A DNA stretch of 64,000 bases from NCBI RefSeq assembly GCF_014196495.1, contig NZ_JACIDT010000005.1:62001-126000 (forward strand). The letters are read 5' to 3'. Origin of the DNA: Sphingobium jiangsuense (GTDB lineage: Bacteria > Pseudomonadota > Alphaproteobacteria > Sphingomonadales > Sphingomonadaceae). Of the stretch, positions 2,771 to 26,682 are shown one piece after another (within the stretch, counting starts at the first letter, position 1; each line of letters starts with the position of its first letter). Below the pieces are notes generated by a model that saw nothing but the letters and a program-made list of their open reading frames with translations, did not search any database and had not been told where the DNA came from. Made by a program: the position numbers and the translations under genes.

Positions 2771-2788
2771 TACGTCAAACGCCCCATA
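2771..2788 (+). promoter_or_regulatory. 18-bp TACGTCAA regulatory element, copy 1
   Basis: TACGTCAAACGCCCCATA, 76 bp (element start to ATG) upstream of the TonB receptor at 2847. It is one of eight near-identical elements in the first 27 kb, all intergenic or at the gene border and all oriented toward a start codon. A weak CATAGG, possibly a -10, lies about 24 bp beyond the element, so it would sit near -35 to -50, where response regulators of the LuxR type usually activate. Confidence 0.8.
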
Positions 2789-2846
2789 TCCTCTTGCGGC
2801 GGGGTTTTCCACATAGGGCAGGTTTCCGAAGGATCAGAAGCCTGCA

Positions 2847-4859
2847 ATGCCCCATAGCCGCCTTTCCCCCGCGCCCCGGCCCCGCCTGCATGCGCCGTGG
2901 CGGACGCTGTCCTGCTGGATTCTGTCCGGCGGTTTGGGCCTTGCCGCGCTTCCCCATGCCGCGCTGGCGCAGGATGCCGGCGGCGTGGGCAATGGGATGG
3001 CCAACGGCGCGGCCGGCAGCGTAGTAAGCCAGGCGCGCGATGCGTTCGGCCAGCGGATCGGCAATGAGGAGATCGGCCTCTATACCGAAGGGCAGGTGCG
3101 CGGGTTCAGCCTTGAGAATGCGGGGAATTACCGCATGGACGGGCATTATTACGTCCGCGCCGCCCGCTTGCCGGACGTGGTCCTCGCCGGTGTCGCGATC
3201 GAGGTCGGCGCCAATGCACTGGCCACCGATTTCCCCGCGCCCTCCGGCATCGTGGCCTCCCGCCTGCGCAGGCCGGGCGCGGGCACGGCCGGGCTGACGG
3301 TGGAGGCGGGCATCCGTCCGCAATTCGCCCCGATGGTGGAGATGAAGGGATGGCTCGCCAGCGCGGACGGGACGCTCGGCGTCGCGGGCGGGGCGCTGGT
3401 CAACCCGCATATCCTCTATTCCGACGGAACGCGGGGGGAGGAATATGCGGTGGGGGCGGTACCGCGCGCGCGGATCGGGGCGCTTAACCTCACCGGGCTG
3501 GCCGCATGGCAGCACCGGCGCTTCAACGGCAATTACAGCTTCCGCAGCGCCAACGGCGCGCTGCCGCCGGAGCTGAAGGGCATCCGGCTGTTCGCCCCGC
3601 CATGGCAGCGTTTCAGGAACGACATGGTCAATCTGGGCGGCATGGCCGACTGGTCGACGCCCGACGGGTGGGAGAGGAAGGCCGGGCTGTTCTGGTCCTC
3701 CTCGTCGCAGCCGGAAAACGACTTCACGATGATGACGCTGAACCCGGACGGCACGGCGCGCACCACGGCGATCGCGGTGCGCGACCAGTATACGCGCTCC
3801 CTTTCCGGCGAGGTGCTGGCCGGGCGGCGGTTCGAGTGGCTGGGCATCGCCCACCGGCTGACCGGCGCGGCGCGGTATCGCCGCACCACCACCCGCGCGA
3901 CGCCGGGGCAATCCTTCGACCTCGGCCTCGTCGACCTCGACGCGCGCGATTTCGGGCCGCCGCCCGTTCTCGACGGCGACATGGTCTACAGCCACGGGCT
4001 GGTGAGGCAGGACAGCATCGGCCTCAGCTATGAAATGGATATCGCCGGGCGGGTAAGGATACAGGCGGGTGTCCAGCGAGCCTTCTACCGCAAGACGGTC
4101 GCCATTGACGGCGCCGTCCCGCAGGAGACGGACGACCGCTACTGGCTGTACAATGGCGCGCTGATCCTCCCGCTGCCGCGCGGCTGGCTCGGCTATATGA
4201 GCTATACGCGCGGGCTGGAGGAAAAGGGCGTCGCCCCCGCCAACGCGGCCAACCGCAACGAGGTGCTGCCCGCCGTGATGGCGCGGCAGGTGGAACTGGG
4301 CGTGCGCGGGCGCGTCCACGGCCGGCTGTCGCTGGCCGCCGGGCTGTTCGAGATCGTCAAGCCCACGACCGGGTTCGACGAGCAGGGGCGCTTCGGCCTG
4401 CAAGGCACGGTGCGCCATCGCGGCGTCGAGCTGTCGCTGTCCGGTCCGCTGACGGACCGGCTGACCATCGCCACCGGCGCGGTCTTTCTCGACCCGGAAA
4501 ATTCGGGACCGGCGGTGGAAACGGGCCTCATCGCGCACTGGCCCGCCGGGCAATCCCGCCTCACCGCGCAGTTCAACATGGAATATCGCCTGCCCGTGCC
4601 CGCGAACCTGTCGGTCGACGTGCAATTGACGCATAATTCCACGCAGCCCGCCGACATGGCGGACAGGTTCCGCACCGGCGCCAACAGCCTGTTCGACATC
4701 GGCGCGCGCTATCGCCTCGCGCTGGCGGGCAGGCCCACGACCTTGCGCTTTCGCGTCCAGAATCTGCTGAACGACCGGTCCTGGTCGGCCAGCGGATCGG
4801 GCACCCTGTCCCGCGTCCGCCCGCGCGCCTTCACCCTGACCGCGCTGGCCAGCCTGTAG
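2847..4859 (+). CDS. TonB-dependent receptor with short plug
   Basis: 670 residues. The N-terminus has an export signal ending near AALPHAALA-QD. The following plug is abbreviated: it begins at about residue 60 with QRIGNEEIGLYTEGQVRGFS and goes directly to the R-G-F and RMDGHYY elements, with no recognisable TonB box or the usual first plug strands. Residues of about 160-670 are amphipathic beta-strand repeats of a 22-strand barrel. It stands alone behind element copy 1 and in front of the nickel permease operon, so outer-membrane uptake of a nickel chelate or of the guanidino substrate is plausible. The substrate cannot be read from the sequence. Confidence 0.8.
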   Translation: MPHSRLSPAPRPRLHAPWRTLSCWILSGGLGLAALPHAALAQDAGGVGNGMANGAAGSVVSQARDAFGQRIGNEEIGLYTEGQVRGFSLENAGNYRMDGHYYVRAARLPDVVLAGVAIEVGANALATDFPAPSGIVASRLRRPGAGTAGLTVEAGIRPQFAPMVEMKGWLASADGTLGVAGGALVNPHILYSDGTRGEEYAVGAVPRARIGALNLTGLAAWQHRRFNGNYSFRSANGALPPELKGIRLFAPPWQRFRNDMVNLGGMADWSTPDGWERKAGLFWSSSSQPENDFTMMTLNPDGTARTTAIAVRDQYTRSLSGEVLAGRRFEWLGIAHRLTGAARYRRTTTRATPGQSFDLGLVDLDARDFGPPPVLDGDMVYSHGLVRQDSIGLSYEMDIAGRVRIQAGVQRAFYRKTVAIDGAVPQETDDRYWLYNGALILPLPRGWLGYMSYTRGLEEKGVAPANAANRNEVLPAVMARQVELGVRGRVHGRLSLAAGLFEIVKPTTGFDEQGRFGLQGTVRHRGVELSLSGPLTDRLTIATGAVFLDPENSGPAVETGLIAHWPAGQSRLTAQFNMEYRLPVPANLSVDVQLTHNSTQPADMADRFRTGANSLFDIGARYRLALAGRPTTLRFRVQNLLNDRSWSASGSGTLSRVRPRAFTLTALASL

Positions 4860-4895
4860 GCGGTGCATCCTGGACCGGCGCCGCCGCCCCCGCAC

Positions 4896-4913
4896 TACGT
4901 CAAATGCCCCTTG
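4896..4913 (+). promoter_or_regulatory. 18-bp TACGTCAA regulatory element, copy 2
   Basis: TACGTCAAATGCCCCTTG, 82 bp before the hupE start at 4978. A TTATGA, possibly a -10, lies at the same spacing (about 22 bp beyond the element) as the CATAGG of copy 1. It would drive the four-gene hupE-receptor-DUF4198-NikL-like operon. Confidence 0.8.
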
Positions 4914-4977: not shown

Positions 4978-5769
4978 ATGAGCAGGCATTTCCCCGGATA
5001 TGGGCCCGGATATGGGAACGGGTTGGCCAGAGGGGCCGCGCGCGCCGCCTGTGCGGTGCTGGCGCTGCTCGCCCCCGTTCCGGCGATGGCGCATAATGTA
5101 TCGGAGCAGGCGCGGCAGATGATGCTGGAAGGCGGCCTGCTGGATGTCGTTCGCATCGGCGCCGAACATATGCTGACCGGCTACGACCATCTGCTGTTCC
5201 TGCTCGGCGTGCTGTTCTTCCTCAAAAGCCATGGCGAGATCGTCCGCTTCATCACCGCGTTCACGCTGGGGCACACGATCACGCTGCTGGGCGCGACGAT
5301 GCTGGGCGTCACCGCCAACGCCTATCTGGTTGATGCGGCGATCGCGCTGACCGTCTGCTACAAGGCGTGCGAGAATCTCGACCTGTTCCGGCGCTGGCTG
5401 GGCGTGCGCCAGCCCAACCTGCTGCTGATGGTCTTTCTGTTCGGCCTGATCCACGGTTTCGGCCTTTCCACCCGGTTGCAGCAGATGACGCTGATGGACG
5501 ACCCGCGGATCGTGCCGAAGATCCTCGCCTTCAATGTCGGCGTGGAGTTGGGGCAGATCGCGGCGCTCGGCCTGATGGTCGGCGTCGTCGGATTATGGCG
5601 CCAGACCGCGCTGTGGCGCCCGGTGACGCGCGCCGTCAACGCGGCGCTCATTCTGGCGGGCCTTGGCCTGTTCGCGACGCAGCTCGGCCATTTCGCCGCG
5701 GGCGATCGTGACGAGGCGGCGATCGCCAGCCGTTCCACCTCCCTCCTTTCCAAGGAAGCTCGCATATGA
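4978..5769 (+). CDS. hupE: HupE/UreJ-family permease (probable nickel transporter)
   Basis: 263 residues with a signal-like N-terminus ending MAHNVSEQA, followed by about six membrane segments. The family signature is present as GAEHMLTGYDHLLFLLG (H..G.DH in the first membrane segment), with a second His-containing segment FGLIHGFGLS. HupE/UreJ proteins are secondary nickel or cobalt permeases of the inner membrane, found with hydrogenases and ureases. The stop overlaps the next receptor's ATG (ATGA), so the permease and the outer-membrane receptor are translationally coupled. The urease genes 22 kb downstream explain the need for nickel. A related but longer paralog lies at 18157. Confidence 0.85.
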   Translation: MSRHFPGYGPGYGNGLARGAARAACAVLALLAPVPAMAHNVSEQARQMMLEGGLLDVVRIGAEHMLTGYDHLLFLLGVLFFLKSHGEIVRFITAFTLGHTITLLGATMLGVTANAYLVDAAIALTVCYKACENLDLFRRWLGVRQPNLLLMVFLFGLIHGFGLSTRLQQMTLMDDPRIVPKILAFNVGVELGQIAALGLMVGVVGLWRQTALWRPVTRAVNAALILAGLGLFATQLGHFAAGDRDEAAIASRSTSLLSKEARI

Positions 5770-7790
5770 AAAAGGCCCTCGCTTTCCTGATGCTCGGCGG
5801 CATCGCAACCCTGCCCGCCGCCGCGCTGGCGGAGGACGCCTCCGCCGACGCCGACGATGGCAGCGCCATTGTCGTCAAGGGCCAGCTGGTCGCTGCGACG
5901 GCGAGCGCCTGGTCGGTCACCACCCTCGGCACGGAGGAGATCCGCGAGCAGGCGCTCGGCCAGATGGACGACTATCTGCGCTTCGTGCCGGGCATGGCGG
6001 TGCGCAACCTCGGCATGGGCGGCGTCGCCAACAGCATCGTCATTCGCGGCTTCGGCAATGGCGGCCATGGCGGCGATCTGGGCGCGGTGATCGACGGCAT
6101 CCCGCTCAACGAGGCGATGAGCCATGCGGACGGCTATGTCGATCTCAATGTCGTCGTCCCGCTGGAGCTGGAGAGCCTGACCGTCTATCGCGGGCCGGTT
6201 TCCGCGCTCTACGGCAATTATAATCGCGGCGGCCTCGTCCGCCTCGATACCCGCAAGGGCGGCGACTATCTCAACGCCGACGCCAGCATGGGCTCATTCG
6301 GTACGGGCGATCTGCAAATGGCGCTGGGGCGGGAATGGTCCGGCGGCACGCTCAACCTCACCGGGCAATATTTCCTCTCCGACGGATATCGCCCCCAAAC
6401 CGATCAGGAGCGGCAGACGCTGTCGGGCCGCCTCGGCCTCGACCTGTCGCCCGGTGTCACGCTGGCGCTGTCGGGCCGCTATCATCATGCCGATGCGCAA
6501 AATGCCAGCTATATCACCGCCGCGCAGTTCGAGACCGACCCTTATGGCATCGACCCCGCTGTGCAGAATGACGGCGCGCGCAAGCATTTCGGTACGGCGC
6601 GGGCGGACCTCGGCATCGCGCTTTCCCCCTCGGCCAGCCTGCTGGGCTTCGCCTATGGCACGCGGCAGGATTTCACCCGCTGGTTCTCCCGCCCCGTTTC
6701 CGGCGCATGGCGGCAGCGAGAGGAAAGCTATGACCGCGCCATCTTCGGGGCGGGTACCAGCCTCAACGGCACCATCGCTGCGGACTGGGCGACAGAGCCG
6801 ATCCGCTATGTCGTCGGGGTGGAGCTGTTCCGGGAACGGACCGACTATATGTTCTACGACGGGCTGGACCGGCGCAGGCGCGTGAGCCCGGCGCTGGCCG
6901 ATCGGCGCACGCGGCTCAACAGCCTGTCCGCCTTCACCGAGATTCAGGCGCCATTGCACCGGCTGTTCGACCTCTCCCTCGGCCTGCGCGCCGACCGCTT
7001 CACCGGCGGCTGCGCGGTGCGCGGGCCGGAAACCGGGGGCGACCCCTGCGGCAGGCTGCGGGTGATCGAGCGGCTCAGCCCCAAGATCGGGCTGCGCTCG
7101 CAACTGGCCGAGGCGCTGCAATTGCGGCTCGGCTGGGCGGAGGGCTTCGCGCTGCCCAATGCCTTCGTCAAATATGCGACCGGCGGCCAGCCGCTCGACG
7201 CCAGCGTCTTCCGCCAGACCGAAATCGGCGTGAAGCTGACGCCGGGGGAGGGCCTCACCCTCGATGCCGCCGCCTATCGCCTGACATCGAGCGGCGAGGT
7301 TCGCACCGTCGCGCCGGGCATTTACGAGAATTACGGCTCCACCCGCAATCAGGGGGTGGAGATCAGCGCCGAATGGCAGGCGACGCCGCGCCTCTGGCTG
7401 CGCGCCGTCTATGGCCATACCGATACCGAGGTGCGCAAGAACGGCGACCCGGCGCTGATCGGCAACAGCGTCGCCGGGGTGCCCCGCGACAGCGCCAATG
7501 TGGATTTGCGCTGGCAGCCGATCGGCGGATGGGAACTGGCGGGCAATTGGCGCTATGTCGGCGCCTATCAGGTCAATGCCGCCAACAGCCTGCAAGCCGA
7601 CCCTTATGACATAGTCGACCTGACCCTGTCGCATGAAGGCCGCGCGCCCTTCGCCTATCGCGCCTATGTGCGGGTCGAGAATGTGGCCGACACCCGCTAT
7701 GCCGCCTCCGTCTCCCTGATCGGCGGGCAGACGCTGTTCTCCCCCGGAGCGCCGCGCACCGTCCGCGCGGGCATCCAGATCACGTTATGA
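5766..7790 (+). CDS. TonB-dependent receptor, nickel operon
   Basis: 674 residues. A clean signal peptide (cleavage near ALA-EDA) is followed by a normal plug: a TonB-box-like SAIVVKGQLV, the segment EEIREQALGQMDDYLRFVPG and the IVIRGFG block, then VYRGPVSALYGNYNRGG, the usual plug end. The rest is beta-barrel. It overlaps hupE by 4 bp and is followed after 16 bp by the DUF4198 gene. Its context strongly suggests outer-membrane uptake of a nickel (or cobalt) complex delivered to HupE. The C-terminus ends in Leu rather than the usual aromatic residue. Confidence 0.85.
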   Translation: MKKALAFLMLGGIATLPAAALAEDASADADDGSAIVVKGQLVAATASAWSVTTLGTEEIREQALGQMDDYLRFVPGMAVRNLGMGGVANSIVIRGFGNGGHGGDLGAVIDGIPLNEAMSHADGYVDLNVVVPLELESLTVYRGPVSALYGNYNRGGLVRLDTRKGGDYLNADASMGSFGTGDLQMALGREWSGGTLNLTGQYFLSDGYRPQTDQERQTLSGRLGLDLSPGVTLALSGRYHHADAQNASYITAAQFETDPYGIDPAVQNDGARKHFGTARADLGIALSPSASLLGFAYGTRQDFTRWFSRPVSGAWRQREESYDRAIFGAGTSLNGTIAADWATEPIRYVVGVELFRERTDYMFYDGLDRRRRVSPALADRRTRLNSLSAFTEIQAPLHRLFDLSLGLRADRFTGGCAVRGPETGGDPCGRLRVIERLSPKIGLRSQLAEALQLRLGWAEGFALPNAFVKYATGGQPLDASVFRQTEIGVKLTPGEGLTLDAAAYRLTSSGEVRTVAPGIYENYGSTRNQGVEISAEWQATPRLWLRAVYGHTDTEVRKNGDPALIGNSVAGVPRDSANVDLRWQPIGGWELAGNWRYVGAYQVNAANSLQADPYDIVDLTLSHEGRAPFAYRAYVRVENVADTRYAASVSLIGGQTLFSPGAPRTVRAGIQITL

Positions 7791-7806
7791 CAGAAAGGAC
7801 CCCCTG

Positions 7807-8511
7807 ATGCGCTCACGCCTTGCCGCGCCACTGATTGCATTCGCCTGCTTCGCGCTGGCCGCCCCGGCGCACGCCCATACGGTCTGGCTGGTGCCCGAAA
7901 AGGCCGGGCGCTGGCATGTTCTCTTCGGCGGCCATGCAGGCCAAACCAACGCCTATCCCGCCGACAAGCTGAAGACGGTGCGGGCGATCGCCGCCAACGG
8001 CAAGACGCTCCCCGTCCGCCGTACCGTTGCGCCGGACGGCGTGCATCTTGCCATAGAGGGGAAACCGAGCGTCATCCTCGCCCATTATGACAATGGCATC
8101 CACACCAGCCGGACGGACGGCCCCTCGGTCGAAAAGCCGATGAACCAGGTGCCGCATGCGACCAGGGGCGTGCGCGCGATCAAATATCACAAGACCCTTG
8201 CCGACTGGACGCCCGCCGTCGCCCGCAGCTACGGCCAGCCGTTCGAGCTGGTGCCGCTTTCCGCGACCCGGCCCGTCGCGGGCAGGCCGATGAAGCTGCG
8301 GGTGCTGATCGGCGGCAAGCCCGCCCCCGGCATCGCCATTGCGCGCAACGAGGAAGGCCGGGAGGCCGTCACCGACGCGCAGGGCGTGGCGAGCTTCACG
8401 CCCGTCGCCGGGTTCAACCGCATCTGGTCCGGCAGGCGCGTGCCGGTAAAGGGCAACCCCGCCTTCACCGAGGACAGCATCGAATATTCGCTGGGATTCT
8501 TCGCGGAATGA
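7807..8511 (+). CDS. DUF4198 periplasmic protein (NikK-like)
   Basis: 234 residues with a signal peptide cleaved near APAHAHTVWLVP, so the mature N-terminus carries His residues. The remainder has the DUF4198 layout: HAGQTNAYPADKL near the start, VLIGGKPAPGIAIA in a beta-sandwich region, and DAQGVASFTPVAGFNRIWS toward the end. DUF4198 proteins occur with nickel and cobalt importers and are thought to bind or hand over metal in the periplasm. Here the gene sits between a TonB receptor and a NikL-like gene and overlaps the latter by 4 bp, which supports a nickel role. Confidence 0.75.
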   Translation: MRSRLAAPLIAFACFALAAPAHAHTVWLVPEKAGRWHVLFGGHAGQTNAYPADKLKTVRAIAANGKTLPVRRTVAPDGVHLAIEGKPSVILAHYDNGIHTSRTDGPSVEKPMNQVPHATRGVRAIKYHKTLADWTPAVARSYGQPFELVPLSATRPVAGRPMKLRVLIGGKPAPGIAIARNEEGREAVTDAQGVASFTPVAGFNRIWSGRRVPVKGNPAFTEDSIEYSLGFFAE

Positions 8512-8999
8512 GGCGGCTGCTATCCCTCGCGCTCGCCGGTGCGGCGCTGCTGTTCTCGCCCGCCGCGCTCGCCCATGGCCTGCTGATGAAGCTGGAGCGG
8601 GAAGGCGATGCGATCGCCGGGACGCTCTATTACAGCAACGGCCAGCGCGCGGGCGGCGAATGGATCGAGCTGTTCGACGAGGCGCGGCCCGGCGCGGCCG
8701 TGCAGACCATCCGCACGCAGGGCGACGGTTCCTTCCGCCTGCACGGAGAGCAGGGCCATCGCTATCGCGTGCGCGCGTCGGGCGAGGAGGGGCATGAAAT
8801 CACCATGACCATCGCCTTCGACGGCGCGCAAGCGCGGGGGAAGATGGTGAGCGGCCCGCAGGAAGAGGGCGCGGCCCCCTCCGAAGCGGAGGCCGTTCCC
8901 GCCTGGGCGGTGCTGGGCGGGCTGCTCGCCCTGTCGGCGATACCGGCGCTGTGGCTGCGGCGGCGCGCGCCCGCCGCAACCCGCGATCATCGGGATTAG
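8508..8999 (+). CDS. NikL-like membrane-anchored periplasmic protein
   Basis: 163 residues. A signal peptide (cleavage near ALAHG) puts a His at the mature N-terminus. A small beta-sandwich domain follows (GTLYYSNGQRAGGEWIELFD, GDGSFRLHGEQGHRYRVRA), and a single C-terminal membrane helix (WAVLGGLLALSAIPALWL) is capped by Arg residues. This is the layout of NikL, an accessory protein of nickel ECF transporters; no ECF components are seen here, so it may serve HupE instead. It closes the operon; the next gene has its own TACGTCAA element. Confidence 0.6.
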   Translation: MRRLLSLALAGAALLFSPAALAHGLLMKLEREGDAIAGTLYYSNGQRAGGEWIELFDEARPGAAVQTIRTQGDGSFRLHGEQGHRYRVRASGEEGHEITMTIAFDGAQARGKMVSGPQEEGAAPSEAEAVPAWAVLGGLLALSAIPALWLRRRAPAATRDHRD

Positions 9000-9008: not shown

Positions 9009-9026
9009 TACGTCAAATGCCCGATG
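9009..9026 (+). promoter_or_regulatory. 18-bp TACGTCAA regulatory element, copy 3
   Basis: TACGTCAAATGCCCGATG, 115 bp before the first arginase-family gene (9124). The last half differs from the consensus by one base. No convincing -10 is visible at the spacing used by copies 1 and 2. Confidence 0.75.
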
Positions 9027-9123: not shown

Positions 9124-10617
9124 ATGCCCGGTTCAGGCCATCCCCCCATCGATCGACCGCCCGCCCGCCGAACGCATAGCGCCAGGACCCTGTGGAAGCC
9201 GGCGCTGGCGCTGTCCGCCGTGACGCTGCTCGCCACCGCGGCGGTCGCCAATATGGACCGGGCGCCCGGCATCACGCGCGCGCCGACGCCCCCCGAACCG
9301 ATCGAGATACCGGAAAAGCTCCAGTCCAGACTGTCCGGCCTCAGCGCCGAGCAGATGGACTATCTGAAAAGCGGCAAGAGCCGCCGCATCGTCAACCCGG
9401 AGGTGATGTTCAGGCGCTTCGAAAGCCTGTCGTCCGAAGAGATCACCGCCTATGTCGATGCGCTGCTGTCGTTGCAGGACCAGATCGACTACAAGGCCGG
9501 GCGCGACAAGGCGTCCATCCCGCTCGATACCTCATCGCCTTCCTTCAACGCATGGAAGATCAGGCGCCCGGCGGAGCTGAACCCGTGGCGCGAGGACGGG
9601 CCGATCGAGCTGGGCCGCTATCTCGGCGGGCGCGGCAGCGGCTTTGCGACCTTCGCCAACGCCCCCGTCGCGCTCGGCCCGAAGGATCTGATCGCCGACG
9701 GCATAGAGGTGGCGATCGTCGGCGCGCCGCTCGACATGGGGTCGGGCTGGCGCGACGCCCGCAACGGACCGCTGGCGCTGCGCACCGCGGGTGCGGTCGG
9801 CGGCTATGGCAATGACATGTTCTCGATGATCGATCCGACGCGGGTGCTGAAGATCGCCGATTACGGCGACATCGCCATCGACCAGCAGAGCACCGAGCGC
9901 AGCGTCCATCATGTGCGCGAGGTCGTCCGCGAGATCGCGAAGACCGGCGCGATCCCCATCGTCATCGGCGGCGACCACAGCCTCGAATATCCCAATCTGG
10001 CGGCGATGGCCGATGTGCACGGCAAGGGCAATGTCGGCGTCGTCCACTTCGATTCCCATTACGACATCGGCAGCGACCGGGTGCACCTGATCGACCATGG
10101 CCAGCCGGTCTACCGCGTGCTGCACGAAGGCCATGTCCGGCCCGACCAATATGTCGAGGTCGGCCTGCGCGCCCGCGGCCCGGACAAGCCGACCTTCCAG
10201 TGGATGCGCGAGATGGGCATGAACTATCATACGATGGTCGAGGTCGAGAAGAACGGCTGGGCCAAGGTGATGGAAGCCGCGCTCGCCAATGCGCGCAAGA
10301 GCGCGAAGAAGATCTGGATATCCTTCGATATCGACGTGCTCGACCCGGCCTATATGCCCGGCACCGGCACCCCGGTCCCCGGCGGCCTCACCATGCGCGA
10401 GGCGCAGCCGATCATGCGCCGCCTGTGCGCGGAAAACGACATTGCCGGGATCGATATCGTCGAGGTCGCGCCCTATCTCGACGTCAGCTACAAGACCGCG
10501 CTCAACAGCGCCTATCTGCTCAACGCCTGCCTCACCGGCATCGCTATGCGCAAGAAGGGCCTGACCAAGCCGCATTGGCTCGATCCCGTTTCCTCCAGCA
10601 GCCGGAAAGGAGCCTGA
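9124..10617 (+). CDS. Exported arginase-superfamily ureohydrolase, paralog A (intact metal site)
   Basis: 497 residues. The N-terminus has basic residues followed by a hydrophobic stretch (ALALSAVTLLATAAVANM), a signal peptide or membrane anchor. A roughly 130-residue helical region precedes the catalytic domain (about 195-480). All six ligands of the binuclear metal site are present: His285 in GGDHS, Asp310/His312/Asp314 in HFDSHYD, and Asp402/Asp404 in SFDIDVLDP. The DHGQPVYR block seen in agmatinases is also there. The family hydrolyses guanidino groups to urea with Mn or Ni. Start: ATG behind AAAGGAG. The partner paralog follows after 3 bp. Substrate unknown: guanidine, agmatine-like, guanidino acids or biguanides are all possible. 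Export is unusual because known family members are cytoplasmic. Confidence 0.85.
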   Translation: MPGSGHPPIDRPPARRTHSARTLWKPALALSAVTLLATAAVANMDRAPGITRAPTPPEPIEIPEKLQSRLSGLSAEQMDYLKSGKSRRIVNPEVMFRRFESLSSEEITAYVDALLSLQDQIDYKAGRDKASIPLDTSSPSFNAWKIRRPAELNPWREDGPIELGRYLGGRGSGFATFANAPVALGPKDLIADGIEVAIVGAPLDMGSGWRDARNGPLALRTAGAVGGYGNDMFSMIDPTRVLKIADYGDIAIDQQSTERSVHHVREVVREIAKTGAIPIVIGGDHSLEYPNLAAMADVHGKGNVGVVHFDSHYDIGSDRVHLIDHGQPVYRVLHEGHVRPDQYVEVGLRARGPDKPTFQWMREMGMNYHTMVEVEKNGWAKVMEAALANARKSAKKIWISFDIDVLDPAYMPGTGTPVPGGLTMREAQPIMRRLCAENDIAGIDIVEVAPYLDVSYKTALNSAYLLNACLTGIAMRKKGLTKPHWLDPVSSSSRKGA

Positions 10618-10620
10618 GCC

Positions 10621-11997
10621 ATGACCGCGACGGCGAACACGCGCATCGGGGCTTTTGCCCTTCCTTCCCTGCTGGCGATGGCCTGCGCGCTGGGCATCAT
10701 GCCCGCCGCCGCCGAGACCGTCCGCTATTCCGCCGCGCTCGCCGCGCGGATCGCCGCCCTGCCGGCCGAGCAACAGGCGTTCCTTACCGACAGCGCGATG
10801 CTGGACCGGGTCGGGCTGACGGCGGACGAGGTGGCGCTCGCGCTGCAGGGGCGCACCGACGAGCAGGCGAGCGCCTATGTCGGCGCGCTGGTCCGGGTGG
10901 TGGCGGACGCCCGGTTCGACCCGGCGACGGACATGGCGGAAATCCCGCTCAACCCGGAAGCCACCGCGTTCAACCTGCCCACCACGCTGCGCCCGGCCCT
11001 GCTGGACAAATTCTACCGCGCGCCCGGCCCGTTCAGCATCGCCTCCTATATGTATCAGCCCGCCGGCATCCCCACCTTCGCGCAGGCCCCGATCGCCCTG
11101 CGCAAGGAGGATCTGGTCGCGGGCAAGGTGGAGGTGGCGTTCGTCGGCATTCCGCTCGACTTCAGCAACGGCCATCGCGACGCCAAGCACGGGCCGATGG
11201 CGTTGCGCGCCAGCGACGGGCTGGTCGGCACCGACATCCATACCGGCCTCGACCCCGCAAAGCTGCTGCGCATGGCGGATTATGGCAATATCGCCGTCGA
11301 CAATATGAGCGTCGAACGGACGGTCGGGCATGTCCGCACGATGGTGGCCGAGATCGCCTCCACCGGGGCGGTGCCGTTCATCGTCGGCGGCGACCATGCG
11401 CTGATGTACCCGGATGTCGCCGCGATGGTCGATGTCTACGGCAAGGGCAAGGTCGGCGTGATCCAGCTCGACGCCCATTATGAGGGCGTCGCGGAGGATG
11501 CGCATTATATCTCCGACATCCAGTCGGTCAGCCGCCTGATCCGCGACGGCATCCTCAGCGGCGGCGACATCGTGCAGATCGGCATAAGGGGCGCGGGCAT
11601 GTCCGGCGCGGACAAGGCCCGCGCGACCGCGCAGGGCATCCGCATGCACAGCATGGCCGATATAGAGAAGGACGGCTGGCGGGCGGTGGTCGACCGGGCG
11701 CTGGCGCAGGTGCGCGCGGGGCCGGAGCATCTGTTCGTCTCCTTCGACATGAGCGTGCTCGACCCGGCCTATGCCCCCGGCGTCGGCCGCCCCGCGCCCA
11801 ACGGCCTCACCATGCGGGAGGCGGTGCCGCTGGTGCGGACCCTGTGCGCGCAGAACAAGGTGGTGGGTTTCGAACTGCTCGACCCCGCGCCGATCCTGGA
11901 TATCAGCTACAAGACCGCGCAAAACGCCAATTACATCCTGCACAGCTGCCTGGCCGGAATGGCGCAGCGTAAGGCGGCTGTCACAAAAGCGCCCTAG
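10621..11997 (+). CDS. Exported arginase-like protein, paralog B (metal site degraded)
   Basis: 458 residues with a clear Sec signal peptide (cleavage near MPAAA-ET). It has the same helical pre-domain and arginase fold as paralogs A and C, but the active site is altered: His259 (GGDHA), Asp284 and His286 are kept, the third ligand of the DxHxD motif is Glu288, and SFDID has become SFDMS, so the second Asp is Ser378. The DHG(Q/T)P block is replaced by SDIQSVSR. It is probably not an independent ureohydrolase. Start: ATG with AAAGGAG upstream. The 3-bp spacing from intact paralog A suggests a heteromeric enzyme, as described for metformin hydrolase, where two arginase-family subunits are needed; that comparison is inference. 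Confidence 0.85.
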   Translation: MTATANTRIGAFALPSLLAMACALGIMPAAAETVRYSAALAARIAALPAEQQAFLTDSAMLDRVGLTADEVALALQGRTDEQASAYVGALVRVVADARFDPATDMAEIPLNPEATAFNLPTTLRPALLDKFYRAPGPFSIASYMYQPAGIPTFAQAPIALRKEDLVAGKVEVAFVGIPLDFSNGHRDAKHGPMALRASDGLVGTDIHTGLDPAKLLRMADYGNIAVDNMSVERTVGHVRTMVAEIASTGAVPFIVGGDHALMYPDVAAMVDVYGKGKVGVIQLDAHYEGVAEDAHYISDIQSVSRLIRDGILSGGDIVQIGIRGAGMSGADKARATAQGIRMHSMADIEKDGWRAVVDRALAQVRAGPEHLFVSFDMSVLDPAYAPGVGRPAPNGLTMREAVPLVRTLCAQNKVVGFELLDPAPILDISYKTAQNANYILHSCLAGMAQRKAAVTKAP

Positions 11998-15871: not shown

Positions 15872-17092
15872 TCAAAGCGTGCAGCTCTTGCCGGGGAAGG
15901 CGAGCGGGTCATAGGGTTCCGGCTGGATCGCCTCTCCGCTGTCGGAGAGGATCTCGAACTGGCCGTCCGCCTTCAGCCGTCCGATATAGGCCTTCTGCAC
16001 GAGGCTCTGGTTGGCGGCGAAGGATACAGGGCCCATCGGCGTCGCGAACGATCCCAGCGTCGCGGCGGCCTTGCGCACCTTTTCAGGGTCGAAGCCGCCC
16101 GCTTTCTCGACGGCGGCCTTCCACGCATAGACGTTGAGATAGCCGTGCACCATCGGGTCGGTGATCGCCGCGTTGGCGTCGTATTTCTTGCGATAGGCGG
16201 CGATGAACTTCGCATTGTCCTCCAGCGTCAGGCTCTGGAAATAATTCCAGCTCGCATAGCTGCCCTCGACCAGCCGGGGGCCCATCGCCTGCGCCTCCTG
16301 CTCGCCGATGGAGAAGGACATGACCGGCAGCTTCGTCGGCGACAGGCCCGCCGCCTGCATCTGCTTGAAGAAGGCGACGTTGCTGTCGCCGTTCAGCGTG
16401 TTGATGATGATGTCGGGCTTCGCCTGCTGGATCTTCGCGATCACGCCGGAAAAGTCGGTGCCGCCCAATGGCACGTAGGATTCGCCCGCGACCTTCAGCC
16501 CGTCCTTTTCGATATGCTTCTTCAGAATCAGGTTGGCGGTGCGGGGATAGACATAATCGGACCCGATCAGGAAATAGCTCTTATAGCCCTGCCCGACCGC
16601 CCACTGGAGCGCGGGCAGCGCCTGCTGGTTGGGCTGCGCGCCCGAATACATGATGTTGGGCGAGCATTCATTGCCCTCGAATTGCACCGGGTACCAGAGC
16701 AGGTTGCCGGTGCGCTCGAACACCGGCAGCATCGCCTTGCGGCTGGCGGAGGTCCAGCCGCCGAAGACGGTGGCGACGCCATTGTCCTCGATCAGCTTCG
16801 AGGCTTTCTGCGCGAAGGTGGAAGGGTCGGACGCGCCGTCCTCGACCAGCGCGGTGATCTTCCGGCCCAGCACGCCGCCCGCCGCGTTGATCTCCTCGAT
16901 CGCCAGCATCTCGGCGTTCTTCACCGTGATCTCGCTGATCGCCATCGTGCCGGTCAGCGATTGCAGCACGCCGACGGCGATGCCGTCCCCTCCGCTGCCG
17001 CTATCGGCCGACTGCCCGCCGGAACAGGCACCGAGCGCAAGGCTGCTCGCCATGCAGGCAAGGGCAAGAACGCGCCGACGAACTGAAATCAT
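15872..17092 (-). CDS. urtA: Urea ABC transporter substrate-binding lipoprotein UrtA
   Basis: 406 residues from MISVRRR. The start is decided by a GGAGGT box 6 bp upstream. A lipobox LALGAC places Cys near residue 22. The mature protein follows the UrtA/amide-binding family: GVLQSLTGTMAISE, FGGWTSASRKAMLPVFE, LLWYPVQFEGNECSPNIMY and GAQPNQQALPALQW. These blocks are typical of urea and short-amide binders rather than leucine binders. The gene lies behind a regulatory element at 17211-17228 shared with the divergent ppiC gene. Its role in the locus is to capture urea released by exported ureohydrolases or from outside. Confidence 0.87.
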   Translation of the reverse strand: MISVRRRVLALACMASSLALGACSGGQSADSGSGGDGIAVGVLQSLTGTMAISEITVKNAEMLAIEEINAAGGVLGRKITALVEDGASDPSTFAQKASKLIEDNGVATVFGGWTSASRKAMLPVFERTGNLLWYPVQFEGNECSPNIMYSGAQPNQQALPALQWAVGQGYKSYFLIGSDYVYPRTANLILKKHIEKDGLKVAGESYVPLGGTDFSGVIAKIQQAKPDIIINTLNGDSNVAFFKQMQAAGLSPTKLPVMSFSIGEQEAQAMGPRLVEGSYASWNYFQSLTLEDNAKFIAAYRKKYDANAAITDPMVHGYLNVYAWKAAVEKAGGFDPEKVRKAAATLGSFATPMGPVSFAANQSLVQKAYIGRLKADGQFEILSDSGEAIQPEPYDPLAFPGKSCTL

Positions 17093-17210
17093 GAACACCT
17101 CCGAACGAAATTCTGGCCGAACGAACCTTTGGCCGAACAAACCTTTGAACGGTGCCGCGACAGGCCGCCGATCCTGCCTTGAAAGCTAGTGAGGGCCGCC
17201 CCCGGTCCGA

Positions 17211-17228
17211 TATGCGTCATTTGACGTA
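17211..17228 (-). promoter_or_regulatory. TACGTCAA regulatory element, copy 4 (palindromic variant)
   Basis: On the minus strand TACGTCAAATGACGCATA, 136 bp before urtA. The right half deviates from GCCCC and instead creates the inverted repeat CGTCA-TT-TGACG, so the site is nearly symmetrical. It lies between urtA and the divergent ppiC-hupE-sulfotransferase operon and could serve both. A CTAGCT occurs at the spacing of the proposed -10 on the urtA side. Confidence 0.68.
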
Positions 17229-21144: not shown

Positions 21145-23526
21145 TCAGAAACTCTTGGTGAACTCTATTCCGACCTTGCGCGGGCTGATGATCGTGTTCG
21201 CATAATAGCGGGACACCACCCCGTCATTGAGGATGCGCCGGGTCAGGTCGTTGCCGACGCTCGCCACCGCGAACTTGTCGAAGATGTTGTCGGCATAGAG
21301 GCGGATTTCCATGCCATCCAGCTTATAGGCGACCGATGCGCGGTGCAGCGTATAGGCGGGCAGCTTCTCGCCCCCGGCGCGGCCGCCCACGCGGGTCAGC
21401 ACATTGCCGGTGTAGGTCGCGGTCCAGTTGAGGTCGATATCCCCGTCGCCCGCCGGAACGGTGTAGGTGACGCCGAGGCTGCCCGAATTCTTGGTGGAGC
21501 CGGGCAGGCGGTCGCCCGACAGCGCCGATACCTTCGGCCCGCCATTGACGTCCATCAGCAGCGGCACGTCCTCGGTCAGATGCGCGTCGTTATAGCTGTA
21601 CGTGCCCATGATGCGCAGCGCGTCGATCGGCCGGGCGCTGAAGTTGAACTCGACCCCCTTCGACACCGCCGCGCCGCCATTGGTGGTGATGCCGATCGCG
21701 CCGTTGATCGTCTGGCCGGCCAGCTGGATGCCCGCCCAGTCGATATGATAGACCGACAGGCTGGCCGACAGGCGCCTGTCGAACAGCGTCGCGCGCACGC
21801 CCAGCTCGGCATTCTTGACCGTATCGGGCGCGAAGAACAGCTCGTCGGGCAGGGCGCACAGATTCTGGCCCGCCGGCAGCGGCAGCACGCAGGGCGCGAC
21901 GCGGTTCACGCCGCCGATGCGGTATCCCTTGCTGTAGGTCCCGTACACCATCCATTCGGGCGAGAGCTTGTAGGAGGCGTTGAATTTCCAGACCATGCCG
22001 TCGTCCGCCGTCGTGCCCTCGCGTGAGCGGAAGTTGATCTGCGGATAGGTCTGGAACAGCGGCAGCGCGGTGCCGCCGATGATGTAGGAGTCATATTTGA
22101 AATAGCGCGCGCCCGCGGTCAGCGTCAGCCCCTCGACCGGTTCCAGCGTCGCTTCGCCGAAAACCGCCTTTTCCGTATCCTTGCTTTTCACATAGGACGC
22201 ATATTCGACCGCGTCCGGACGGTATATGCCCGCCCATTCGGGATAGCCGGGCAGGATTTCCCGACGGTCGCTCCTGTATTTCAGCTTGTTGTAGAAGCCG
22301 CCCAGCACCCAGCTCAGCGGGCCGCCATGGGTGGAAACGAAGCGCACTTCCTGCGTGAACTGGCGATAGCTGGTGTCGCCCGTCGCATAGCCCGCAAAGG
22401 CCGGGAACATCTCATAGCCATAGTCGAGATCGAGCAGCAGGTCGGTCACGTCCGACTTCGACCGGATCTTGCGTTCGGACCATGCGGTCGAGGAAACCAG
22501 CTGCGCGATGCCCGCCAGATCCAGCTCGATTTCGGCGCTGAGCATCTGCGACTTGCGCTTGACCGGCTCCAGATAGCGCCAGGGCGCCTCATATTTGCCG
22601 GTGCCGAGCACCCCGCCGCCATTGGACTGGCGGCCATTGGTGCTGGTCTGCTGATAGAGATAGGTGAGGTAGACGTTCAGCCCGTCGAACGGGAACAGGC
22701 CCAGCTGGTTGCGGGTGGAATAGGTCAGTTCCGAATTCGCGTCCTTGTAGGACCAGAGATTCTGCGCGATCTGGTCCGGCGTGCCGATGGAGCCGTCCCA
22801 TGTCGTCGGGCTGCCGGGCTGGGGGAGCGAGACGCCCGGCGTCTGCACCAGATAGTTGTAATCGATGAAGCCGGGATCGTTGTAATAGCCTGCGGTCGAG
22901 CGCAGCGCGACCTTGCCGGGGATGATCGGGATGTTGATCGTGCCGTCCACGCTGAAACCCGGATCGGACGCATGGGCGACGTCGTAGAGGCGGCCGTGGA
23001 ACTTGCCGGACCATTTGTCCGGGTCGGGCCGGGCGGGGATATAGCGCATCGCGCCCGCCATGGTGGCGGACCCGTAAAGCGTGCCCTGCGGCCCCAGCAG
23101 GGTTTCCACCCGCTCGATATCGAGGAACTTGACGTCCAGATAGAGCGGCACCTCGCCCATATAGGTGGTCAGCATCGTGCTGTTGTTGCTGCCGGTGGAG
23201 CTGGCGTCGTTGGCGCTGAGGCCGCGCATCACGATGGTGCCGGTGTTGCCGGGGCCGGTGTCGCGGATCGTCACGCCCGGCGTGAAGGCGGCGAGATCGC
23301 GGACGTTCTGCACGCCCTGTTCCTGGATCTGCTCCGACGACATGGCCGCGATGTTGATCGGCACGTCCTGCAACGATACGGCGCGGCGCGTGGCGGTGAC
23401 GACGATCACGTCGCCGGACTCGGCATTGGCGGCGTCGGCTTCCTGCGCCTGCGCGGGGACGGCGGAAAAGCCCGCCAGCGCGGTCGCCGACATCAATGCC
23501 AGACGGGTAAGAGTGTGAAACTGCAT
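21145..23526 (-). CDS. TonB-dependent receptor (large, OMR type)
   Basis: 793 residues from MQFHTLTRLAL, chosen because GGGGG lies just upstream and the signal peptide (cleavage near PAQA-QEA) follows at once; the open frame extends 550 bp further but through the regulatory element. TonB-box-like DVIVVTATRRAVSLQDVP, the plug blocks IQEQGVQNVRDLAAFTPGV and VETLLGPQGTLYGSATMAG, and a C-terminal Phe (FTKSF) are all standard. The plug block normally reading RG.G/R.I is TIVMRGLSAND. It is controlled by element copy 5, so it belongs to the same regulon as the urease genes. Substrate unknown. Confidence 0.88.
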   Translation of the reverse strand: MQFHTLTRLALMSATALAGFSAVPAQAQEADAANAESGDVIVVTATRRAVSLQDVPINIAAMSSEQIQEQGVQNVRDLAAFTPGVTIRDTGPGNTGTIVMRGLSANDASSTGSNNSTMLTTYMGEVPLYLDVKFLDIERVETLLGPQGTLYGSATMAGAMRYIPARPDPDKWSGKFHGRLYDVAHASDPGFSVDGTINIPIIPGKVALRSTAGYYNDPGFIDYNYLVQTPGVSLPQPGSPTTWDGSIGTPDQIAQNLWSYKDANSELTYSTRNQLGLFPFDGLNVYLTYLYQQTSTNGRQSNGGGVLGTGKYEAPWRYLEPVKRKSQMLSAEIELDLAGIAQLVSSTAWSERKIRSKSDVTDLLLDLDYGYEMFPAFAGYATGDTSYRQFTQEVRFVSTHGGPLSWVLGGFYNKLKYRSDRREILPGYPEWAGIYRPDAVEYASYVKSKDTEKAVFGEATLEPVEGLTLTAGARYFKYDSYIIGGTALPLFQTYPQINFRSREGTTADDGMVWKFNASYKLSPEWMVYGTYSKGYRIGGVNRVAPCVLPLPAGQNLCALPDELFFAPDTVKNAELGVRATLFDRRLSASLSVYHIDWAGIQLAGQTINGAIGITTNGGAAVSKGVEFNFSARPIDALRIMGTYSYNDAHLTEDVPLLMDVNGGPKVSALSGDRLPGSTKNSGSLGVTYTVPAGDGDIDLNWTATYTGNVLTRVGGRAGGEKLPAYTLHRASVAYKLDGMEIRLYADNIFDKFAVASVGNDLTRRILNDGVVSRYYANTIISPRKVGIEFTKSF

Positions 23527-23680
23527 GCTACCCCCTTTTTCAGGTATCTTGTTCAACGCCTTTTCAGACCATGCCCCCCTCCCGAGGCTCGCGCTCTTGC
23601 GGCGCATGGGGCGAGGACGCCTGCGGTCCTCTGGATCCTTGTCCGATGGGGTGACGCTATGCGCCGGGGGGCGGGCCAGC

Positions 23681-23698
23681 CATGGGGCGTTTGACGTA
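23681..23698 (-). promoter_or_regulatory. 18-bp TACGTCAA regulatory element, copy 5
   Basis: On the minus strand TACGTCAAACGCCCCATG, 172 bp before the receptor start at 23526. A CATAGC lies about 20 bp beyond it, matching the spacing of copies 1 and 2. It is the main recognisable signal in the 303-bp gap 23527-23829. Confidence 0.8.
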
Positions 23699-23829
23699 GG
23701 CGCTGCGGCACCCTGCCAAGCAATTGATTTTACATGAAAATAATGCGGATTGTGGCCGGGTCGGCTTTGCATTACCCTCAGGCGCAAAGTCGAACGAAGA
23801 CTCGACGGAACAACGCAGGAGTGAACAGG

Positions 23830-24129
23830 ATGCCTTTCTCCCTGACCCATGGGGCAGCTGCGGCTGCGCTCGCCTTCTCCCCCTTCATCATGGCCGCCGG
23901 CACCGCGCAGGCGACCCCGTTCGCCAGCGAGCGGGCGGCGGTCAGCACGTCCGGGCTGGACCTCGCCACCGACAGCGGCCGCGCGGCGCTGGACGCCCGC
24001 ATCGCGCGCGCGGCGGCCGAGGTCTGCGGCAAGTCGGTGCATCATCTGGGCGCGTCCGCCACGACCAGGGCCTATCAATGCCGCCAGGAAGTGATCGCGG
24101 AAACCCGCTCGAAGCTGCTCCTGCGCTGA
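23830..24129 (+). CDS. UrcA family small secreted protein
   Basis: 99 residues from MPFSLTHGAA, with a signal peptide cleaved near GTAQA-TPF. The mature part has the UrcA pattern: VSTSGLDLATDSGRAALDAR followed by an EVCGK...YQCRQEV pair of Cys likely to form a disulfide. UrcA proteins are common in sphingomonads and have no established function. Start: ATG 7 bp after AGGAGTGAACAG (GGAG). It has no forward TACGTCAA element, so its place in the regulon is uncertain. It converges with the next gene, leaving 3 bp between stops. Confidence 0.75.
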   Translation: MPFSLTHGAAAAALAFSPFIMAAGTAQATPFASERAAVSTSGLDLATDSGRAALDARIARAAAEVCGKSVHHLGASATTRAYQCRQEVIAETRSKLLLR

Positions 24130-24732: not shown

Positions 24733-24909
24733 GGCCGGTCGCTTTCCCGGCCGCTCTTCCTGCGCCCCGGCGCGAGGCGCGGCCGGGTGAAAAGGCGGGC
24801 GGGCATCATGATCGTCTCTCCGGCATGGTGTTCTCCGTTGAAGGAGGGGGAAGGGCCGTCGAACCGGCTGCATCCGTCGGGCAGGCTGCCCGCAATCGCC
24901 CTTTTCCGC

Positions 24910-24927
24910 CATCGGGCAATTGACGTA
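24910..24927 (-). promoter_or_regulatory. 18-bp TACGTCAA regulatory element, copy 6
   Basis: On the minus strand TACGTCAATTGCCCGATG, pointing to the MauD-like gene (start 24732). It lies 42 bp from copy 7, which points the other way, so the pair forms a divergent control region. Confidence 0.75.
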
Positions 24928-24969
24928 GAGGCGGGCCTTTTCCCGCGCCGGTCCAGCGCAAGGGCGGGC

Positions 24970-24987
24970 TACGTCAATCGCCCCATA
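24970..24987 (+). promoter_or_regulatory. 18-bp TACGTCAA regulatory element, copy 7
   Basis: TACGTCAATCGCCCCATA, 88 bp before the arginase-family gene at 25058. A CCTAGCC is found at the spacing of the proposed -10 (about 20 bp beyond). Confidence 0.8.
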
Positions 24988-25057
24988 GCCCGGAGGGCTC
25001 GACCGGCCTAGCCTGCCGTCCTCAGCTACAGCAACGGCCTAAAGGGGGCAGGCGGGA

Positions 25058-26557
25058 ATGGCGATGCGGGACTGGATCACGGGGGCGGCGCTGGCCGCCG
25101 CCGCGCTGACATCGGCGGCGGTCATCGCCGAAAGCGGGAAGCCGCAACTGCCGCCCGAACTGGCGCAGAAGGTCGCATCGCTGCCGAAGGAGAAGCGCGA
25201 TTTCCTGACCTCGGAAGCCGCCGAGGGACTGGCCGGATCCTTCGCCAAAATGTTCCAGCGCCTCGAAAACCGCACCACAGGCGAGATAGAGGCCTATATC
25301 GACGGGCTGATGAGCGCCGCCGAGGCGTTGAAATACAACCCGGAAACCGATGTCGCCTCCATCCCGCTGCGGACCGAGGACCCGTTCTTCAACTCGTGGA
25401 AGCTGATGCGCCCGCGCACGATGGACCCGAAGCGGGAGCCGGGGCCGTTCGGCCTCAGCCGCTATATGTTCCAGCATGGCGCGCAGGGCATGTACGGCAG
25501 CGGCATCGCCACCTTCGCGGGCGCGCCGGTGGCGATCTGGCCGGAGGATCTGGTGGCAGGCAAGGTCGATGTCGCGATCGTCGGCGCGCCGCTGGACATG
25601 GGGTCGGGCTATCGCGGGGCGAAGGGCGGTCCGGCGGCGATGCGCAATCAATATGGCATGGGCGGCGTCGACATGGCGACGATGGTTGACCCGTCGAAGG
25701 AGCTCAACATCGTCGATTATGGCGATATCGCCGTCGACAATATGAGCACCGAGCTGACCGTGCAGCATGTGCGCGAGCGCGTGGCGGAGATCGCCCGCAC
25801 CGGCACCGTCCCGTTCATCGTCGGCGGCGACCACAGCCTCGAATATCCCAACGTCGCGGCGATGGCGGACATCCACGGCAAGGGCAGCTTCAGCGTCATC
25901 CATTTCGATTCCCATTTCGACGCCGGGCGCGAGGGCATTCATTTCCTCACCCATGGCGCGCCGGTCTATCGCGCCGTCAAGGAAGGGCATGTGCGGGGCC
26001 AGGATTATATCCAGGTCGGGCTGCGCGGGTCGTGGCCGGGCGCCGAGGGCTTCGAATGGATGCGCGACAACGGCATGAGCTACTACACCATGCCGACGGT
26101 CGAGAAATATGGCTGGGCCGCGACGATGGAGCGCGTGCTGAAGAACGCGAAGGAAAACGGCAAGAAGCTCTATATCTCGTTCGACGTCGACATTCTCGAC
26201 CCGGCCTTCATCCCGGCGACCGGCACCCCGGTTCCGGGCGGCCTCACCATGCGCGAGGCGATACCGATCGTGCGCCGGCTGTGCGCGGAAAACGACCTGA
26301 TCGGGTTCGAGATCGTCGAGCTCGCGCCGCAGCTCGACACCAGCTATCGCAGCGCGCTCAACGCCAATTTCATCCTGCACGCCTGCCTGACGGGCGTGGC
26401 GATGCGCAAGAAGGGCATCAGCGCGCCGGGCTTCCTTTCCGAGCTGACGACCGACCATAGGCAGCCCGGCGCGGGCCGCACGGGTGCGAAGGACGGCAAG
26501 GCGGAGAAGATCGACCCCGATTATGGCGACCTGCGCAGGTCCCGCCCGCGCATCTGA
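25058..26557 (+). CDS. Exported arginase-superfamily ureohydrolase, paralog C (intact metal site)
   Basis: 499 residues. The N-terminus MAMRDWITGAALAAAALTSA is a signal peptide with cleavage near VIAES. A helical pre-domain (LPKEKRDFLTSEAAEGLAG, GEIEAYIDGLM) leads into the arginase fold. The metal ligands are complete: His259 (GGDHS), Asp284/His286/Asp288 (HFDSHFD) and Asp376/Asp378 (SFDVDILDP), plus HGAPVYRAVKEG. It is closer to paralog A than to B in its active-site blocks. About 45 residues after the family core are charged and variable. Start: ATG behind AAAGGGGGCAGGCGGGA. It stands as a single gene under element copy 7, ending in a hairpin, just before the urease operon. Expected product: urea plus an amine or ammonia; substrate unknown. 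Confidence 0.87.
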   Translation: MAMRDWITGAALAAAALTSAAVIAESGKPQLPPELAQKVASLPKEKRDFLTSEAAEGLAGSFAKMFQRLENRTTGEIEAYIDGLMSAAEALKYNPETDVASIPLRTEDPFFNSWKLMRPRTMDPKREPGPFGLSRYMFQHGAQGMYGSGIATFAGAPVAIWPEDLVAGKVDVAIVGAPLDMGSGYRGAKGGPAAMRNQYGMGGVDMATMVDPSKELNIVDYGDIAVDNMSTELTVQHVRERVAEIARTGTVPFIVGGDHSLEYPNVAAMADIHGKGSFSVIHFDSHFDAGREGIHFLTHGAPVYRAVKEGHVRGQDYIQVGLRGSWPGAEGFEWMRDNGMSYYTMPTVEKYGWAATMERVLKNAKENGKKLYISFDVDILDPAFIPATGTPVPGGLTMREAIPIVRRLCAENDLIGFEIVELAPQLDTSYRSALNANFILHACLTGVAMRKKGISAPGFLSELTTDHRQPGAGRTGAKDGKAEKIDPDYGDLRRSRPRI

Positions 26558-26599
26558 CAGGAGAGTTACGGAACAACCGGGGCCTTTCGGGTCATAAAA

Positions 26600-26639
26600 G
26601 GCGCCTCACGCACCATTTCCCCGGTTGGCGTGAGGCGCC
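26600..26639 (+). terminator. Hairpin after arginase paralog C
   Basis: A perfect 12-bp stem (GGCGCCTCACGC and its complement) with a 16-nt loop lies 42 bp after the stop. There is no clear T-run, so termination is likely but not certain; it separates paralog C from the urease promoter. Confidence 0.55.
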
Positions 26640-26664
26640 ATCATCCTTTCCCGCGCGGCGGCCA

Positions 26665-26682
26665 TACGTCAAACGCCCCATG
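26665..26682 (+). promoter_or_regulatory. 18-bp TACGTCAA regulatory element, copy 8
   Basis: TACGTCAAACGCCCCATG just in front of the urease operon. Its last three bases form the ATG at 26680, which argues against that codon as the ureD start and for the ATG at 26716 (51 bp after the element start). Confidence 0.8.

Follow-up and report, generated by a model that had tools for sequence, protein, structure and literature searches.

A putative operator of a transporter-fused two-component system in a urea, guanidino and nickel gene cluster of Sphingobium jiangsuense

A described counterpart of the locus analysed here is the CrbS/CrbR system of Pseudomonas and Vibrio, which controls acetate utilisation; the part of PMC5715377 that deals with its promoters places the inverted repeat of CrbR in an activated promoter, from -52 to -36. 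In Dechloromonas aromatica, the gene list given in PMC2907700 includes an unnamed histidine kinase (1131 aa) and a receiver protein (308 aa) beside UrtA, both listed without function. We analysed a stretch of 64,000 nucleotides from Sphingobium jiangsuense (contig NZ_JACIDT010000005.1, positions 62,001 to 126,000; hereafter the window), in which an earlier note on the sequence had pointed out eight copies of an 18-bp element along a cluster of urea, guanidino and nickel genes. By analogy, the window appears to encode a transporter-fused two-component system akin in its working to CrbS/CrbR and different from it in sensor fold and regulon, and we consider it highly probable that the element is the operator of this adjacent system, whose transporter-fused sensor would activate the urea/guanidino/nickel regulon.

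The element and the response regulator gene

All eight copies were found at the positions reported for them (2771, 4896, 9009, 17211(-), 23681(-), 24910(-), 24970 and 26665). They had been described by a short sequence followed by (A/T)(C/T)GCCC(C/G)AT(A/G), a consensus which six of the eight fit exactly, with one mismatch in the copy at 4896 and two in that at 17211 (minus strand). The sequence TACGTCAA is carried exactly by all eight copies, and a search with TACGTCAA alone returns the same eight in the window. A refined consensus, TACGTCAAWYGMCSNATR, was built from the sites of relatives, and the copy at 17211 fits it exactly. The 18 letters of this copy recur unchanged upstream of urtA in another genome (G094), and one further copy is present in G057.

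The number of copies had been called far more than chance, which agrees with our count of eight against 0.31 expected from dinucleotide shuffles (maximum 3 among 100 shuffles, up to three mismatches allowed). A scan of the whole genome (4.82 Mb, 67 contigs), which the earlier note had suggested, returned the eight sites; every other match had at least two mismatches. TACGTCAAWYGMCSNATR gave seven exact matches and one match with a single mismatch (4896), all belonging to the eight, and its two matches with two mismatches (C8 and C49) are both within open reading frames (ORFs). There were 71 more matches with three mismatches, compared with 41 matches in all for the reversed control pattern. 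Among the 36 weaker matches that were placed, 29 lie within ORFs of at least 150 aa, and every one of the seven outside has three mismatches. The outcome of the scan thus favours the regulon as far as strong sites are concerned and leaves room for weak sites.

Each predicted operator is given here with the hexamer found at its -10-like offset. Operator 1 (2771..2788, plus strand; CACATA at offset 39, with the A present and the -10 T absent) is upstream of the gene for a TonB-dependent receptor (2847-4859), operator 2 (4896..4913, plus strand; one mismatch; TATGAG at offset 40) upstream of the hupE operon (4978-8999), and operator 3 (9009..9026, plus strand; GAAAAA at offset 39) upstream of a pair of ureohydrolase genes (9124-11997). 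On the minus strand, operator 4 (17211..17228; TAGCTT at offset 40), which represents a near-palindromic subtype, is upstream of urtA, and operator 5 (23681..23698; TAGCGT at offset 39) is upstream of the gene for a large TonB-dependent receptor (ORF 21145-24078). Operators 6 (24910..24927, minus strand; CAGCCT at offset 39) and 7 (24970..24987, plus strand; TAGCCT at offset 39) are divergent, and are upstream of a MauD-like gene and of the gene for ureohydrolase C (25058-26557), respectively. Operator 8 (26665..26682, plus strand; CACCTT at offset 39) is upstream of the urease operon, which continues into the genes for the kinase, the response regulator (RR) and NikR, and its site is kept at ureD in relatives.

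The description of the copies as lying between genes and facing starts holds once three ORF starts are corrected: as listed, the starts at 26680 (ureD), 24912 (MauD-like gene) and 24078 (large TonB receptor) overlap or pass a site, and they are probably over-extended. Candidate downstream starts are present at 24732 for the MauD-like gene and at 23526 for the large TonB receptor, and the tblastn match of ureD begins 8-234 bases past the site in 12 of the 13 loci of relatives in which ureD has a site, overlapping it by 41 in the other. From these candidate starts and match starts we infer that all eight sites are intergenic, each facing a gene. The arrangement of the sequences suggests joint control of the eight units.

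The LuxR-type regulator at 35145 had been named as the best candidate for binding the element, and its distribution among relatives points the same way. This LuxR/GerE-type RR (35145..36089, plus strand), the predicted binder, has a receiver domain (PF00072, aa 16-128, E 2.4e-26) and a GerE domain (PF00196, aa 252-306, E 1.7e-15), and the phospho-acceptor Asp and its partner residues are retained by eye (VDD, LMDAVMPG, RKP). In a sample of 199 genomes from the family, an RR match (E 1e-30) was found in 25, and the exact element occurs in 10 of these and in none of the 174 genomes without the RR. All 26 exact sites, 19 of them outside this genome, are within 33 kb of the RR gene. When 23 proteins of the window were used as tblastn queries on the surroundings of sites in four relatives, G028 and G156 yielded only the kinase, the RR and the large TonB receptor, and G011 and G031 the kinase, the RR, urease and urt genes; the kinase-RR pair was the one companion found in all four.

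The element in other Alphaproteobacteria

The surroundings of RR genes, 68 stretches with 1.296 Mb in all, hold 42 sites with up to two mismatches, as against 0-2 (mean 0.67) for 12 letter-permuted patterns. Of these 42 sites, 24 are just upstream of orthologues of window genes, in a range from 500 bases ahead of the tblastn match to 60 bases into it: urtA in eight cases, the large TonB receptor in seven, ureD in six, the kinase in two and ureohydrolase C in one. In a class-level sample of 289 genomes, own genome included, the RR was found in 21 and the exact element in five, with the own genome in both counts.

The forms of the site in the urtA region were classed by eye in 26 named loci. A perfect palindrome, TACGTCAATTGACGTA, which is a 16-bp inverted repeat with the core TACG-N8-CGTA, precedes urtA in five of them (L139, L149, L151, L157 and L158), TACGTCAATCGACGTA in six (L135, L140, L141, L147, L148 and L156), other TACG-N8-CGTA-like or near forms in six (L133, L145, L150, L154, L160 and L161) and an asymmetric form in four (L137, L138, L142 and L144); no convincing site was seen near urtA in the other five (L129, L134, L146, L152 and L153). 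Among 20 class-level loci, five had no usable urtA-kinase pair, and in 10 of the 15 with an examinable urtA region TACG-N8-CGTA lies between urtA and the kinase gene. The remaining five have the asymmetric form (L243 and L261), a near-palindrome (L258) or none (L252 and L262). As a control, TACG-N8-CGTA was counted across all 20 loci (397 kb) and was found 17 times, 10 of them in the urtA-kinase gaps and three (L248, L249 and L251) just upstream of the kinase match. Because the urtA sites of relatives are often inverted repeats, the element of the window is best read, judging from this symmetry, as a LuxR-type dimer site of which one half is intact and the other decayed.

Two other recurring sequences were set aside. 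Many genomes of the family (many of L027-L056) have TACATCAATTGCCCSATG, as a rule in a single copy and mostly in the absence of the RR; we took it for a different, probably coding, sequence. TACGTCAATCGCTCGATG, seen in G185, G072 and G081, was likewise regarded as a different recurring sequence.

Proposed signalling and alternative explanations

We propose that the NCS1-like input domain of the membrane kinase would sense a small nitrogen compound, likeliest urea or a guanidino compound, and that the kinase would phosphorylate the LuxR-type RR. A dimer of the RR would bind the inverted repeat (TACGTCAA and its complement, with the downstream half decayed in sphingomonads) near -43, overlapping the -35 region, and would recruit RNA polymerase as a class II activator. 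The outer-membrane receptors, nickel permeases, ureohydrolases, urea importer, urease and the kinase-RR operon would be co-activated; exported ureohydrolases would then make urea in the periplasm, and UrtA would capture it for urease.

The hybrid sensor kinase (31762..35148, plus strand) comprises the NCS1-like membrane domain (about aa 22-478), an eight-cysteine module (aa 497-534), a long helix, and HisKA, HATPase and receiver domains. Its residues 1-646 were folded from an alignment with the kinases of 51 relatives (52 sequences in all), giving a predicted model with pLDDT 88.4 and pTM 0.88. Foldseek and a second aligner both put CodB and Mhp1 first (CodB, Z 37.8, root-mean-square deviation 3.0, 395 of 400 residues; Mhp1, Z 32.2), and the next family reached Z 26.0. 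Other transporter families are numerous at Z 22-26, and NCS1 alone is clear of them; SLC5 structures are listed below NCS1, with Z at most about 25 as against 37.8. None of the 52 kinase input domains reached an NCS1 Pfam model (E up to 0.1), and we therefore describe the membrane domain, on the basis of the model, as having an NCS1-like fold and not as a member of the NCS1 family. STAC was not among the Pfam matches of the kinase, in a library whose inclusion of a STAC model was unchecked. Placed between membrane domain and kinase core, the eight cysteines show no variation among the 52 aligned kinases and possibly form a metal or redox module.

The most likely ligand of the kinase would be urea or a guanidino compound, because of the regulon, the frequent neighbourhood of urtA outside the sphingomonads and the NCS1-like MetT of the metformin cluster. 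It is possible, though rather unlikely, that the regulon answers nitrogen limitation or nickel instead, and that the NCS1-like domain has become a relic or responds to an unrelated signal. Several targets are indeed nickel-related, and the eight invariant cysteines could bind metal. Such a signal, however, fits poorly with the position of the kinase-RR pair beside urtA in many loci outside the sphingomonads, and with the NCS1-like MetT, which is a putative importer in the account of the metformin cluster in PMC11271267.

The direction of control was considered from the spacing of the sites to their promoters. In the alignment of 110 sites (weighted 81, window included), conservation is within the 18 bp, with a weak CG at +19/+20, and beyond the element it is mainly an A at offset 40 (60%) and a T at offset 44 (53%). 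Of the 75 non-redundant sites from beyond the window, 32 have a -10-like A...T at offset 39 and a further 13 have it at offset 40, giving 45 together; other adjacent pairs of offsets average 5.1, the largest being 13. Within the window, five of the eight sites have A...T at offset 39 or 40, and the T is absent at 2771, 4896 and 9009. With the transcription start assumed to be about seven bases past the -10, this preferred spacing would place the site at roughly -51 to -34, with its centre near -43, which is the geometry of a class II activator. It is improbable that the RR binds and represses, or that the kinase is mainly a phosphatase, so that the regulon would be on by default. A repressor could act here, since the site overlaps the predicted -35 region, where polymerase can be blocked, but the preferred -10-like spacing goes with a site alignment in which no -35 hexamer can be recognised. 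Such spacing without a -35 hexamer is the usual sign of an activator-dependent promoter. CrbR, moreover, activates from its repeat at -52 to -36, according to the promoter section of PMC5715377.

NikR (36082..36624, plus strand), whose gene overlaps the end of the RR gene, is probably not the binder of this element, and we regard it as very improbable that it occupies the sites and shuts the genes off by repression at high nickel. The nickel permeases and a nickel enzyme among the targets would suit NikR, and its gene and that of the RR are no more than about 10 kb apart in eight relatives (G013, G036, G045, G079, G115, G117, G156 and G164, most of them with a short kinase), so a nickel link recurs although NikR does not track the element. 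NikR_C was found in 29 of the 199 family genomes, yet in only three of the 10 with the element (Fisher p 0.16), and the element does not resemble the usual type of NikR operator. A tblastn search with the NikR of the window gave no match in other loci, but it missed copies that the NikR_C search found (for example, in G156), and its silence was not used. Hardly credible is an origin of the eight near-identical short copies within 24 kb as dispersed-repeat remnants or recent duplications, since over the 110 sites conservation drops outside the 18 bp save for the weak CG and the -10-like positions, and copies are present at orthologous genes in several genera.

To the missing NCS1 Pfam match must be added several further observations that weigh against an operator of the kinase-RR pair. 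The seven genomic matches with three mismatches outside large ORFs, together with further matches of this kind, could include weak extra sites. The Fisher test of the co-occurrence of element and RR (p 1.5e-10) ignores shared ancestry. In the window, the -10 candidates at offsets 38-41 match TATAAT at four of six positions at most, and most at two or three. No recognised window orthologue lies just downstream of 18 of the 42 sites in the stretches around RR genes. At the class level, the exact element occurs in just two of the 20 further genomes that have the RR: the site in G472 faces urtA at 80 bases, and that in G248, at a distance of 58 kb from the RR gene, points away from urtA. The exact element also occurs in two genomes without a detected RR (G261 and G310), where no window gene was found nearby. 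Within the family, it is absent from 15 of the 25 RR-bearing genomes.

In 13 of these 15 genomes, all but G109 and G117, the kinase is shorter and lacks the membrane domain. Sorted by the type of kinase, the exact element is present in eight of 10 genomes with a full-length kinase, as against two of 15 with a short one (G028 and G156). Copies with one mismatch are near the RR gene in G029 and G117, two copies with two mismatches are present in G045, and some other RR genomes without the element carry variants such as TACGCC-N4-GGCGTA. In our reading, the short-kinase loci form a paralogous branch, which perhaps represents a sister regulon. Palindromes of the form TACGCC-N4-GGCGTA were seen in the short-kinase loci L200 (18903) and L205 (1295 and 2124), and the short-kinase locus L117 (5265-7976, 12463) adjoins genes of an NMT1-type ABC transporter.

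Target genes and comparison with known systems

Among the transporter and urease genes, UrtA and ureG were recovered by profile, and the names of urtBCDE and of the other urease genes are those of the earlier note. UrtA, the binding protein of a urea ABC transporter (15872..17140, minus strand), is above the cut-off of TIGR03407, and ureG is above that of TIGR00101; the urease operon, from ureD to ureG, is at 26680..31765 (plus strand), with the ureD start over-extended. The three ureohydrolase genes are all on the plus strand. Ureohydrolases A (9124..10617) and C (25058..26557) have full metal-ligand motifs, and those of ureohydrolase B (10621..11997) are degenerate at DAHYE and SFDMS (A: GGDH, DSHYD and SFDIDVLD; B: GGDH, DAHYE and SFDMSVLD). 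A second ureohydrolase pair, in L213, has a B-type member with DAHYD and SFDMSVLD and no GGDH match. Among solved structures, A and C scored best against guanidinobutyrase 3nio, and B against guanidinase 7esr/7oi1. By eye, all three enzymes have a signal-peptide-like N-terminus, as do ureohydrolases of relatives (L089, L187, L193, L212 and L219), suggesting from the sequences that the ureohydrolases are exported to the periplasm; in the A-type enzyme of L213, such a start is not evident within the stretch inspected.

The only Rfam match at gathering score in the window was 5_ureB_sRNA (28361-28646, minus strand, 91 bits), antisense within the ureC ORF, which probably reflects coding conservation of the urease gene. 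Control by a guanidine riboswitch was dismissed, as no riboswitch reached the cut-off in the window. The cluster also contains a gene for a TPR-sulfotransferase fusion (18864-20795, plus strand), which no element precedes.

None of the best 20 of 562 literature matches to the motif letters looked relevant. Among the matches listed from the open-licence literature, there was no description of this operator, of the regulon or of an NCS1-fused kinase, and no account of such urea or guanidino sensing in Alphaproteobacteria, both of which we take as weak absences. The portion of PMC5557971 that reports nickel RNA-seq of Sphingobium sp. ba1, grown with added nickel, does not name this cluster. The GrtK/GrtR ammonia system is unrelated, with a PilS-type membrane domain and a Fis-type helix-turn-helix (HTH) domain in the description given in PMC12918730.

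We suggest tentatively, as a reading that may hold, that these loci belong to an unnamed class of two-component systems across Alphaproteobacteria, in which a receptor combining an NCS1-like fold with eight cysteines would respond to urea or guanidino compounds through a TACG-N8-CGTA operator at urea uptake genes, and which in sphingomonads would be extended to periplasmic scavenging via exported nickel ureohydrolases. If this is true, the NCS1 fold would join the transporter folds used as sensors. With operator, regulator, kinase and targets all specified, the question of sensing becomes directly testable, and regulons can be predicted by pattern. Export of the ureohydrolases, if it takes place, could let bacteria use guanidino compounds, which include some pollutants and drugs, without prior import.

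CbrB of Pseudomonas is an NtrC-type RR. Its partner CbrA is, like the kinase of the window, fused to a transporter domain, and is presented in the relevant part of PMC5715377 as a STAC-containing, global metabolic regulator; CbrA has an SLC5-type domain, whereas the best fold match of the kinase here is NCS1. The Dechloromonas aromatica pair resembles the kinase-RR pair in sizes and neighbourhood, as given in that genome's gene list (PMC2907700). In its enzymes, the cluster is like that of the metformin hydrolase MetCaCb, which, in the cluster description of PMC11271267, has paired ureohydrolases, one with and one without a metal centre, nickel incorporation genes and the NCS1-like protein MetT. 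There, however, MetT is a separate putative importer and the regulators are of the AcrR and MerR types, and we found no mention of export of the enzymes in that description. Guanidinase systems under guanidine riboswitches, such as that of Nitrospira inopinata, share an enzyme of the ureohydrolase family, nickel, and urea followed by urease, but their control is RNA-based, as outlined in the part of PMC11410670 on these systems. Like CrbS/CrbR as characterised in the pertinent part of PMC5715377, the present system combines a hybrid kinase having a transporter-fold input with a LuxR-family RR, an imperfect inverted repeat and a metabolic regulon. It differs in that the input of CrbS is SLC5 plus STAC, whereas the best fold here is NCS1, with the eight-cysteine module between membrane and kinase; in that the RR here, of 314 aa, has a middle stretch between receiver and HTH that distinguishes it from CrbR; and in that the regulon concerns urea, guanidino compounds and nickel here and acetate there.

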